This document shows positions 1,381 to 5,011 of a stretch of 5,011 nucleotides of DNA, in pieces. A program made the translations under genes and the position numbers. Within the stretch, counting starts at the first letter, position 1. Each line of letters opens with the position of its first letter. The notes beneath the pieces are model-generated. The model ran no database searches and was not told the origin of the DNA. It saw only the letters and a list, made by a program, of their open reading frames with translations. This stretch comes from Pseudomonadota bacterium (GTDB taxonomy: Bacteria; Pseudomonadota; Alphaproteobacteria; Acetobacterales; Acetobacteraceae), in contig JAJYFW010000191.1 of NCBI GenBank assembly GCA_021785335.1, positions 1 through 5,011 on the forward strand, given 5' to 3'.

Positions 1381-2508
1381 TCAGGCCGCCGACCGGCTCG
1401 CCGAGCGGTCCGGTGTCAGCCGGTAGGTGGTGAAGCGCCGGCTCAGCGCCGGCAGCGCCGCGATGTCCATCGCCCCCTCGCCAGGCCGCATCACGATCAT
1501 CGCCACCGTCGCCGTCTCCACGCCGTCCAGTCCCGGACGGGGCGGCCGGCAAACGGACCACGGCGAGCCGAAATCGTCGAACAGCGCGTTCTTGATCGCG
1601 GTGCGGTCGATCCTGCCCCTGAGCGGCGCCAGCGCCTCGCGCACCCGCGTATGCCGGTAAAGCGTGCACGGCGTGCTCTCGATCCCCGTATCCTTCAGCT
1701 TCGCGAGCGCGACGGGCGAGAGAAAATGGTTGGAGTGCACCAGCAGCCCCGCATCCGCCTCCAGCATGAAGGTCTCGTCCGGCGCGCACTCGAAATTGAT
1801 CGCGAGTCCCCTGGCATGGCTCACGCACATGTTGTTCGCCGCCGACTTCCTCGTCGCCTGCGCCACCCGCCACGCCAGGGCCAGGTTCTGCTGCGCCAGG
1901 ATCTTCCGCCGTATCAGCGCCAGCGGCACCCCCAGTTCCCGATAATCCCTGTCACACTGCAAATAATTCGCCGTAAGCCCGATCCCGGCGGCATTGAGCC
2001 CGGACCGCGCGAGCCCGCCCGCCTCGGTGAACGTCAGAATGTCCGGCCCGTCGTCGCGGCGGATGTGCAGCACCACCGCCGTCTCCGCGCACGCCGCCTT
2101 CCAGTCCCAGTTCTGCGCGTGCAGCAGCCCCTCGGTGGTGGCCTCCGGCATCGCCAGCACCGCCGTGCAGCCCTCCTCGGCTCCCACCGCCGCCGCCAGC
2201 GCGCGCCGCTTCGCCAGCTGCAGGATCTCGGTGCGCGCGTTGAGCAGCACGATGTCCTCGAACGCCACCTCCGCCCCGCGCGCGATCCCGCGCATCTCCG
2301 GGATCATTGCCTCGTCGAATGCCTTGATCGTGGGCAGGAAGCCGCGCACCAGGTCGGCAAGCCGCCCGCCTTCCAGCCCCGCCGCACGCAACTGCGCCCC
2401 GTAATGCGCGATCCCGGCATCGATGCGCGCCTTCGCCGCCCTGCCATAGGCCACGCCGCGCTGCTCCGGCCCGCCGGACAACTCGATCAGGGGAAACGCA
2501 TTGACCAT
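1381..2508 (-). CDS. C45-family autoproteolytic acyltransferase/hydrolase (penicillin acyltransferase-like, Ntn fold)
   Basis: This 375-residue protein resembles the peptidase C45 / acyl-CoA:6-aminopenicillanate acyltransferase family. These N-terminal-nucleophile enzymes cut themselves before a Cys, and that Cys then attacks amide or acyl substrates. The expected cleavage site is Gly113-Cys114-Thr115 in EEGCTAV. Cleavage there would give subunits of about 113 and 262 residues. Supporting family segments are AYGRAAKARI (20-29), the Glu/Asp-rich region near 75-95 ending FEDIVLLNARTEI, and AQNWDW (131-136). Further segments are GGLARSGLNAAGIGLTANYL (164-183), LLVHSNHF (255-262) and the late TATVAMIVMRPGEG (332-345). 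There is no signal peptide, so it is probably cytoplasmic. The ATG at 2508-2506 was chosen because GAGGAG (2522-2517) lies eight bases upstream and homology begins just after it. The frame stays open 51 codons further back, but that extension is Arg/Gly/Pro-rich and unlike the family. The substrate is unknown; N-acyl amides, beta-lactams and peptide-like amides are all possible in this family. Confidence 0.9.
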   Translation of the reverse strand: MVNAFPLIELSGGPEQRGVAYGRAAKARIDAGIAHYGAQLRAAGLEGGRLADLVRGFLPTIKAFDEAMIPEMRGIARGAEVAFEDIVLLNARTEILQLAKRRALAAAVGAEEGCTAVLAMPEATTEGLLHAQNWDWKAACAETAVVLHIRRDDGPDILTFTEAGGLARSGLNAAGIGLTANYLQCDRDYRELGVPLALIRRKILAQQNLALAWRVAQATRKSAANNMCVSHARGLAINFECAPDETFMLEADAGLLVHSNHFLSPVALAKLKDTGIESTPCTLYRHTRVREALAPLRGRIDRTAIKNALFDDFGSPWSVCRPPRPGLDGVETATVAMIVMRPGEGAMDIAALPALSRRFTTYRLTPDRSASRSAA

Positions 2509-2770: not shown

Positions 2771-2776
2771 TATACT
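2771..2776 (+). promoter_or_regulatory. Possible -10 element for the solute-binding-protein gene
   Basis: TATACT is the most AT-rich, sigma-70-like hexamer in this GC-rich gap. It lies 43 bases before the GTG start, which would leave a leader of roughly 35-40 bases. The expected -35 position (about 2747-2753, AAACGG or similar) matches the consensus poorly, so the call is weak. A promoter needing an activator would fit. Confidence 0.35.
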
Positions 2777-2785
2777 TTGGGGGAC

Positions 2786-2800
2786 TGGCGCTCAGCGCCA
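2786..2800. promoter_or_regulatory. 15-bp inverted repeat, candidate operator or leader hairpin
   Basis: TGGCGCT-C-AGCGCCA is a perfect inverted repeat of seven-base arms around one central base. It lies between the possible -10 (2771-2776) and the ribosome binding site (2807-2811). In DNA this is a plausible site for a dimeric repressor blocking the start of transcription. In RNA it could fold as a five-base-pair stem with a five-base loop just ahead of the Shine-Dalgarno. GC-rich DNA produces such repeats by chance fairly often. Confidence 0.35.
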
Positions 2801-2811
2801 CAACATGGAGG

Positions 2812-2827
2812 TGTTTCACGTGAAACG
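2812..2827. other. parS: parS-like ParB-binding centromere site overlapping the start codon of the next gene
   Basis: The 16 bases TGTTTCACGTGAAACG match the widely conserved chromosomal parS consensus TGTTTCACGTGAAACA at 15 positions; only the last base differs. The inner 14 bases (2813-2826) are a perfect palindrome with the CACGTG core at its centre. ParB dimers bind such sites, spread along the DNA and, with ParA, segregate the origin region. Chromosomal parS sites normally cluster near oriC. Here the GTG start codon (2820-2822) of the solute-binding-protein gene is part of the core, and the gene's Shine-Dalgarno lies directly before the site. ParB bound here could reduce transcription of that gene. 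A chance match to within one base in 5 kb is unlikely (about 6 in 100,000 assuming equal base use). No parA or parB gene is visible in the window. Confidence 0.78.
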
Positions 2828-4400
2828 ACGCAACTTCTTGCAGGGCAGCGCCGCCGCTGTCGCTGCTTCCGGGCTCGCGAGCCCCGCGCTCGCGGCTCAG
2901 CCGCAGGTGCTGAAATACATACCGCAGGCGAACCTGTCCTCGATCGACCCGATCTGGACCACCGCCACCGTCGCGACCCTGCACGGCTACATGGTCTACG
3001 ACACGCTCTACGGCATCGACGAGAAGCTGCTGCCGCACCCGCAGATGGTCGCCGGCCACACCATCTCGTCGGACAAGCTCACCTGGACGCTCACGCTGCG
3101 CGACGGCCTCGCCTTCCACAACGGCGCGCCCGTGCGTTCCGCGGACTGCATCGCCTCCATCGAGCGCTGGGGCAAGCGCGACGGCTTCGGCCAGTACATG
3201 ATGGCGATCACCAACGAAATGAAGGCGGTGAACGACAAGACCTTCACCATCCGCCTCAAGAAGCCTTTCGCCCTGCTGCCCTACTCGCTCGGCGCCGAGG
3301 GCTGCTTCATCATGCCCGAGCACGTCGCCAAGACCGACGCCTTCAAGCAGATCACGGATGCCACCGGCAGCGGCCCCTTCGTCTTCCAGCCGAAGGAGTT
3401 CGTCTCCGGCTCGCAGGTGATCTACACCAAGAACACCAAGTACGTCCCCCGCTCCGGTCCCGCGAGCTACTGGGCTGGCGGCAAGGTCGCGCATTTCGAT
3501 CGCGTCGAGTGGAAGATCATCACCGATCCCGCCACCTCCGCCGCGGCGCTCGAGCGCGGCGAGGTCGACTGGTGGGAAAACCCGATCTTCGACCTGCTGC
3601 CGACCCTTGAGAAGGCCAAGGATGTCACCGTAGAGGCGCTCGACCCGCTCGGCGCCCTCGGCATCATCGCCTTCAACCACGAGCAGGCGCCGTTCAACAG
3701 CCACGCAATCCTGCGCGCGCTCCTGCACGCGGTGGACCAGAAGGAATACGTCCAGGCCGTGCTCGGCGCCCAGGCGTCGAAGTTCGGCAAATACCCGGCT
3801 GGCTACTTCACCCTCGGCTCGCCCTACGCCAACACCGTGGGGCTCGAGGCGCTCAGCGGCCCGCGCAACATCGACCTGGCCAAGAAGCTGATCGAGCAGG
3901 CCGGATACAAGGGCGAACCCGTCGTGCTGATGTCGCCCTCGGACCAGCCGCAGCTTCAGATCATGGCCCAGGTCACCCAGGACCTGTACCAGAAGGTCGG
4001 GATGAAGGTGCAGTACCAGAGCATGGACTGGGGCACGCTCGTTGCCCGCCGCGCCGAGCACAAGCCGGCGGACCAGGGCGGCTGGAACAGCTTCTGCACC
4101 ACCTGGGGCGGCCTGCAGGTCGCCAACCCCGGCGGCTCCTACCCGCTGCGCGGCAACGGCAAGAACGGCTGGTTCGGCTGGCCCACCAACCCGGACATCG
4201 AGACCCTGCGCAACCAGTGGTTCGACGCTCCGGACCTGGCCGCCCAGCAGAAGATCTGCGAGCAGATCCAGGCCCGCGCCTTCCACGACGTGCCCTTCAT
4301 TCCCGTCGGCCAATGGGTCACCCCCACCGGCCATCGCTCCAACCTCACGGACTTCGTGAAGTGCGGCGTGATGGTCTTCTGGAACGTGAAGCGCGTCTGA
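2820..4400 (+). CDS. Tat-exported ABC transporter solute-binding protein, SBP_bac_5 (dipeptide/nickel class)
   Basis: This 526-residue periplasmic protein should capture a solute and deliver it to an ABC importer. Relatives bind oligopeptides, nickel, glycosides, opines and other ligands, so the substrate cannot be named. A twin-arginine signal opens the protein: KRRNFLQ at residues 2-8, a hydrophobic Ala-rich stretch and SPALAA, with likely cleavage near residue 25-26. Family-5 signatures follow: DPIW (43-46), YDTLYG (60-65), LTWTLTLRDGLAFHNGAPV (87-105) and ATGSGPFVF (181-189). The C-terminal end is VFWNVKRV. Length is normal for the family. The GTG start is chosen because GGAGG (2807-2811) lies eight bases upstream and it places the Tat arginines near the N-terminus. 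In-frame ATGs at 2805 and 2697 would add 5 or 41 residues. The start codon lies inside the parS-like palindrome. No permease or ATPase is seen on either side, so this looks like an orphan binding protein or one whose transporter is elsewhere. Confidence 0.92.
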   Translation: MKRRNFLQGSAAAVAASGLASPALAAQPQVLKYIPQANLSSIDPIWTTATVATLHGYMVYDTLYGIDEKLLPHPQMVAGHTISSDKLTWTLTLRDGLAFHNGAPVRSADCIASIERWGKRDGFGQYMMAITNEMKAVNDKTFTIRLKKPFALLPYSLGAEGCFIMPEHVAKTDAFKQITDATGSGPFVFQPKEFVSGSQVIYTKNTKYVPRSGPASYWAGGKVAHFDRVEWKIITDPATSAAALERGEVDWWENPIFDLLPTLEKAKDVTVEALDPLGALGIIAFNHEQAPFNSHAILRALLHAVDQKEYVQAVLGAQASKFGKYPAGYFTLGSPYANTVGLEALSGPRNIDLAKKLIEQAGYKGEPVVLMSPSDQPQLQIMAQVTQDLYQKVGMKVQYQSMDWGTLVARRAEHKPADQGGWNSFCTTWGGLQVANPGGSYPLRGNGKNGWFGWPTNPDIETLRNQWFDAPDLAAQQKICEQIQARAFHDVPFIPVGQWVTPTGHRSNLTDFVKCGVMVFWNVKRV

Positions 4401-4554: not shown

Positions 4555-5011
4555 GTGTTGCCCGCTCTCACGCCGCAAGGCCAGTCGATCGAAAAGGTGA
4601 TGCTCGCCGGCATCCGCGTCTGTGTCGGCTGGGTCTTCCTCTGGGCCGCGATCCACCATTTCGGCAACAGCGCCTATGTCGGCGGCTTCCTCTCCCACAC
4701 GAAGACGTTCCACCCCGTCTACGGCCCTCTCGCGGCCTCGCCGCTGCTGCCGCTCATTTCGTTCCTGGTGGAATACGGCCACCTGCTGATCGGCCTGTCG
4801 CTGGTGAGCGGGCTGTTCGTGCGCGCCTCCGCTCCCTTCGGCATCCTGCTCCTGATCCTCTACTGGACCGCGCACATGAGCTTCCCCTTCATCGGGGACC
4901 CGAACAACCTGCTGATCGACTTCCACATCACCTACGCCTTCGCGCTCGGCCTCTGCATGGTCCGCCACGCCGGCCACGCCTATGGGCTCGACGGCCTGGT
5001 CGCGAAATGGC
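4555..5011 (+). CDS. DoxX-family integral membrane protein, 3' end beyond the right edge
   Basis: The frame is open from GTG at 4555 to the end of the window, giving 152 residues. It looks like the DoxX/DoxD family of small four-helix inner-membrane proteins. Members are linked to thiosulfate:quinone oxidoreductase subunits, respiratory redox balance and oxidative-stress complexes. Likely helices lie at residues 15-33, 64-88, 93-108 and 119-136. Features common in the family are Arg21 in helix 1 and Glu73 in helix 2 (FLVEYGHLLIGLSLVSG). Near helix 4 are FIGDPNNLLIDFH and a YGLDG motif close to the C-terminus (143-147). Family length is about 130-180 residues, so only a short tail is probably missing. 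The gene follows the solute-binding-protein gene by 154 bases with a hairpin between, so it probably has its own promoter, though I see no clear one. Its partner and substrate are not evident. The family call rests on pattern and topology only. Confidence 0.82.
   Translation, partial: MLPALTPQGQSIEKVMLAGIRVCVGWVFLWAAIHHFGNSAYVGGFLSHTKTFHPVYGPLAASPLLPLISFLVEYGHLLIGLSLVSGLFVRASAPFGILLLILYWTAHMSFPFIGDPNNLLIDFHITYAFALGLCMVRHAGHAYGLDGLVAKW

Follow-up and report, generated by a model that had tools for sequence, protein, structure and literature searches.

A parS-type site spanning the likely start codon of a family-5 solute-binding protein gene in the Acetobacteraceae

Chromosomal parS sites at gidB (rsmG) and gidA (mnmG) are the closest counterparts of the site described here. 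They carry the same 14-16-bp palindrome, and several show the arrangement Shine-Dalgarno-TTTCAC-GTG-AAAC with the central GTG in the frame of the gene. In P. aeruginosa, as described in the available part of PMC5521831, parS3 and parS4 lie near oriC in intergenic regions upstream of the ordinary genes PA0011 and PA0013, and ParB was measured to repress the genes beside them. The same part of that paper reports that genes beside the intragenic parS1 and parS2 are unrepressed at the native ParB level and that loss of the B. subtilis ParB caused no significant change in expression. In Streptococcus pneumoniae, the accessible text of PMC7022226 describes a single site, parS(-1.6 deg), that affects the non-par operon comCDE, located 5 kbp away.

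We analyzed a 5,011-nt stretch of DNA from a member of the Acetobacteraceae (hereafter, the window) that contains a parS-type site at the beginning of a gene encoding a solute-binding protein (SBP; Table 1). Unlike the gidB and gidA sites, which occupy housekeeping genes neighbouring the par locus, this site lies on an SBP gene whose contigs carry no par genes. Like parS3 and parS4, it is associated with an ordinary gene, but it spans the end of an intergenic region and includes the start codon itself. As in S. pneumoniae, a single site is associated with a non-par gene, but here it sits on the gene start.

Table 1. Coordinates of features in the window.
Feature	Position	Strand	Basis
C45-family autoproteolytic acyltransferase/hydrolase, divergent neighbour	1381..2508	-	NF040521 E 1.1e-77; likely start ATG 2508, from translation
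TATACT, possible -10-like element	2771..2776	+	inferred; G001 and G002 have it, G004 lacks it; no match to a sigma-70 consensus pair
Small inverted repeat TGGCGC-TCA-GCGCCA, with four bases between it and ATGGAGG	2786..2800	+	sequence; partly kept in G004
Alternative in-frame starts ATG 2805 and GTG 2811 (MEVFHVKRRNF...), judged less likely	2805..2819	+	open frame; conserved in genus
Shine-Dalgarno GGAGG, abutting the parS-type site, 8 nt before GTG 2820	2807..2811	+	sequence; conserved in G001, G002 and G004
parS-type site TGTTTCACGTGAAACG, 15/16 to consensus, inner 14-bp perfect palindrome 2813-2826	2812..2827	+	sequence; identical in G001, G002 and G004
ABC-type family-5 solute-binding protein (SBP_bac_5), Tat-type signal, GTG start inside the parS-type site	2820..4400	+	PF00496 E 3.4e-66; TIGR01409 above cut-off; TAT_signal PF10518 below cut-off

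Comparison of TGTTTCACGTGAAACG with the parS consensus TGTTTCACGTGAAACA, in the form printed in the available part of PMC7383237, revealed a single mismatch, at the final base, and the inner 14 bp, GTTTCACGTGAAAC, form a perfect palindrome. Using a threshold of three mismatches, no other parS-like 16-mer was present in the window, nor did any of 200 shuffled window sequences contain one. The initial annotation had described the near-consensus match, the inner palindrome and the abutting Shine-Dalgarno sequence, and all three were confirmed. It had also placed the GTG start codon in the middle of the CACGTG core (2817-2822); the likely start is indeed inside the site, but the GTG (2820-2822) is the 3' half of that core rather than its middle. 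Translation of the SBP gene likely starts at GTG 2820. This codon was preferred over the two upstream candidates because the resulting N-terminus, MKRRNFLQG, matches those of many homologs (MKRR...) and because its distance from the Shine-Dalgarno sequence is usual.

The SBP gene comprises 526 codons. No ABC permease or regulator was recognised among the five window proteins scanned, and the last open reading frame (4555-5010) matched no family. The intergenic region between the C45 and SBP genes is approximately 310 bp, and the parS-type site spans its end as well as the start codon. A scan of positions 2500-2900 for promoters and terminators yielded no match. A plasmid origin for the window was rejected: the one match fell on the SDR gene and amounted to 10% of the sequence.

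To place the site among its relatives, four genomes of one genus (G001-G004; the genus of L002) were used as close relatives. A scan of genome contigs was also performed, and its best 80 loci were examined. Two of these (L001 and L002; 97 and 96% protein identity) retained the 16-mer in full at the start codon; the other 78 had no site with two or fewer mismatches anywhere in the DNA fetched. Orthologs of the SBP gene were present in three of the four genus genomes, with amino acid identities of 97, 97, and 82% in G001, G002, and G004, respectively, and in each the 16-mer was identical at 16 of 16 positions and contained the same start codon. Thus, conservation of the palindrome at the same gene in relatives, which the initial annotation had suggested checking, was borne out in all three genus genomes that have the SBP gene. 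The fourth, G003, is without a close ortholog (best E 1.8e-156 versus 0 in the other three), and no match to the C45 gene was found in this small assembly (2.4 Mb). The gene order upp-SDR-C45-SBP-last ORF is identical in the window, G001, and G002. The C45 gene also adjoins the SBP gene in G004, where it is cut by the contig end. On the G004 contig (L101), there was no match to the open reading frame that follows the SBP gene in the window, G001, and G002; another gene lies directly after SBP.

The G004 gene is 84.7% identical to that of the window at the nucleotide level, with changes at 70 of 232 fourfold sites; upstream of the gene (2680-2799), identity falls to approximately 50-65%. Despite this divergence, the 26 bp of ATGGAGGTGTTTCACGTGAAACGACG (2805-2830) are invariant. 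This run was rejected as stand-alone proof, as longer invariant runs occur inside the gene body, and constraints on the Shine-Dalgarno sequence and start codon explain some of the invariance. The conservation argument comprises four sequences including the window, with G001 and G002 close to the window and three derived from fragmented assemblies; on these data, there is moderate support for the site having been kept by selection at its place.

Outside the genus, searches of 200 and 397 genomes of the family provided further homologs, of which 29 loci were examined (27 from the first and two from the second). Identities were approximately 52-70%, so paralogs are certainly among them. In all 29, the closest start codon to the aligned position was ATG, versus GTG in the window and the three genus orthologs. 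None of the 29 had a parS site at the SBP start; within 45 nt of this ATG, every 16-mer differed from parS at five or more positions. There was no site at the SBP gene of G073, an ortholog with an adjoining C45 gene and the sequence GGGAGAATTTCATGATCAAGCGACG at the same place, or of G071, in which the C45 gene is approximately 2.5 kb away. Because the 29 outside homologs have ATG as the closest start and lack the site, the simplest account is that the palindrome, and with it the GTG start, arose on the lineage leading to the genus and was then kept. The codons under the palindrome were considered separately: AAA accounts for 3 of 31 Lys codons and CGA is the sole one among 19 Arg codons. As evidence for the site, these rare codons were judged weak because CGA also occurs at the same place in G073.

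Allowing up to two mismatches, G001 through G004 contain 4, 1, 3, and 3 parS-type sites, respectively. In G001, G003, and G004, two of these occupy the 5' end of rsmG (gidB) at a distance of 52 bp from each other; mnmG precedes rsmG, and parA and parB follow it. The rsmG proteins of G001 and G004 were confirmed by a match to the GidB Pfam family. In G002 (2.7 Mb), the SBP site is the only one. The ParB of G004 has ParB_N, HTH_ParB, and ParB_C domains, and those of G001 and G003 are 93-94% identical to it. Alignment to C. crescentus ParB (6t1f), motif-matched to the numbering of PMC7383237, located R173 and G201 in the G004 protein; the available part of that paper lists these among the specificity residues and as absolutely conserved in ParB orthologs. 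By its domains and these residues, G004 has a parS-type chromosomal ParB.

Two further sites in the genus lie elsewhere. G001 has a 15/16 site, TGTTGCACGTGAAACA (L097:3816-3831), outside the rsmG and SBP loci, in surroundings that appear AT-richer by eye. The third site of G003 (L100:1936-1951) lies in a contig with phage-type genes: a primase-like gene is on one side of it, and genes for terminase, portal, and head protease are on the other. It possibly belongs to a prophage with a host-type centromere site.

Across 200 Acetobacteraceae genomes, 159 had at least one site with one or no mismatch, commonly one to three, and 41 had none. A reversed-pattern control on the 200 genomes was non-zero only in G044 among the genomes listed. 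Two genomes of the family are rich in sites. G198 has 15 parS-type sites, and the ten fetched (L177-L186) lie on seven contigs; by eye, approximately eight of these ten are a perfect parS within a palindrome-like element of approximately 60 bp (TTAGG...CCTT-parS-AAGG...CCTAA). G180 has 12 sites; of the ten fetched (L209-L216), three lie within 106 bp at rsmG and the rest on seven further contigs.

The sequence, its conservation in the genus, the rarity of such sites in the genomes, and the parS-type ParB of G004 make it very likely that the site at the SBP gene is a genuine accessory parS of a chromosomal ParABS system, and ParB probably sits on the SBP gene.

The location of the window relative to the origin was evaluated from contigs and from the family. 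The genus contigs bearing the SBP gene are 6-20 kb and contain no par genes; the par loci are on different short contigs. In G071, G073, G056, G059, G024, G167, G195, and G018, the contig with the best SBP homolog was not one of those with parS sites. Among the matches listed, weaker homologs (48-55% identity, likely paralogs) that share a contig with parS were 158 kb from it in G071 and at least 0.9 Mb from it in G105, G124, and G146. Extra sites with one or no mismatch were present on the contig of the rsmG/mnmG site, within approximately 133 kb, in G057, G139, G083, G152, G089, and G194, and on another contig in G100, G065, G041, G013, and G146. Sites with two mismatches lay up to approximately 227 kb from the rsmG/mnmG site in G124 and G146, and many dispersed sites were found in G198 and G180. 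These extra sites hint that the window is near the origin. According to the available parts of PMC7333895 and PMC5815017, cells mostly tolerate ectopic parS close to native sites; Caulobacter disfavours it at mid-arm and is also reported to show some preference for the terminus region. It is plausible that the window lies near the origin, both for this reason and because extra sites in several family genomes are within approximately 133 kb of the rsmG/mnmG site when the two share a contig.

The initial annotation had implied that a start codon within parS is unusual. The start does lie inside the site, but the layout recurs at rsmG and mnmG of related bacteria. A GGAG located 0-4 nt before the 14-bp palindrome occurred in 20 of 385 Alphaproteobacteria genomes, at 26 listed places. 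At these, the central GTG was in the frame of rsmG three times (L133, L135, and L146) and in that of mnmG three times (L143, L144, and L145); L134 corresponds to the window's site in G002. At L136, the frame from the central GTG reaches a CoaE domain only at residue 30, and the true start may therefore be later than this GTG. Elsewhere among the 26, no recognised gene followed from the central GTG at the places scanned. A start codon inside parS is therefore a known layout, and the novelty lies in the gene, an orphan family-5 binding protein. No description of parS on the start codon of a transporter gene was found in a literature search that had little coverage of subscription journals.

The preferred reading, an accessory parS, suggests the following course of events. 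In the ancestor of the genus, the start region of a Tat-exported family-5 SBP gene would have acquired the sequence Shine-Dalgarno-TTTCAC-GTG-AAAC in place of an ATG start and kept it since. ParB dimers would load on this site as on the two rsmG sites and slide outward across the divergent intergenic region and into the beginning of the SBP gene. The available part of PMC5815017 reports that Caulobacter ParB spreads up to approximately 2 kb around individual parS sites. Less certainly, and by analogy with parS3 and parS4 of P. aeruginosa, the bound ParB could lower transcription of the SBP gene, and possibly that of its divergent C45 neighbour.

Whether the gene responds is a separate matter. 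The site may only load ParB and SMC, its position on the start codon being incidental and SBP expression unaffected by ParB; we hold this to be about evenly balanced against its opposite. Consistent with it, the central GTG was in the frame of rsmG, a housekeeping gene, near its 5' end in 12 of 28 regions with an rsmG match; these 28 are a subset of 60 fetched family regions, which were a non-random choice from the listed places. Some parS-type sites of other family genomes also lie outside par genes, and the intragenic sites of P. aeruginosa that left their neighbours unrepressed fit the same account. Against it, the SBP site is at a divergent intergenic end, close to the kind of location at which repression was seen in that organism, again according to the available part of PMC5521831. 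As the site spans both the intergenic end and the start codon, either outcome, repression or none, is possible. The initial annotation had proposed that ParB could silence or time the gene and so couple uptake to origin segregation. We regard a real regulatory effect on the SBP gene as possible but the less probable outcome. A stronger version, in which the centromere site was recruited as an operator such that ParB nucleates on the SBP start and represses the gene or times it with origin segregation, selection for ParB binding having replaced ATG by GTG, is slightly more doubtful still.

Three accounts that dispense with ParB fared considerably worse. The palindrome could be the operator of a dedicated transcription factor, its likeness to parS being coincidental. 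Its place between the Shine-Dalgarno sequence and the start, at a divergent intergenic end, would suit an operator, as would the second inverted repeat at 2786-2800. However, the site matches parS at 15 of 16 positions, its other copies with up to two mismatches are in rsmG beside parAB in every case in G004 and in all but one in G001, and none of the five scanned window proteins is a recognised regulator. We thus consider such an operator improbable. It is similarly improbable that the start region drifted into the palindrome by chance or neutral inheritance. The sequence GGGAGAATTTCATGATCAAGCGACG of G073 indicates that the ancestral sequence may have shared several bases with the site, and the genus sequences number only four. 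Nevertheless, the reversed-pattern control was nearly empty among the genomes listed, the 16-mer is unchanged in G004 despite wide divergence, and all four genus sequences retain the less favoured start codon. Finally, translational control by an RNA hairpin was rejected as extremely improbable: a 5-bp hairpin with the start codon partly in its loop is possible, but none of the four folds exceeded its shuffles in stability (z +1.05, +1.22, +0.29, and +0.12), and the predicted G004 fold lacks the hairpin.

The accessory parS reading describes an apparent genus-specific gain of parS outside the par locus, placed with base precision on an unrelated gene. As such, the locus offers a small system for asking how centromere regions expand by acquiring further parS sites and whether a gene comes under the control of ParB loaded at its start.
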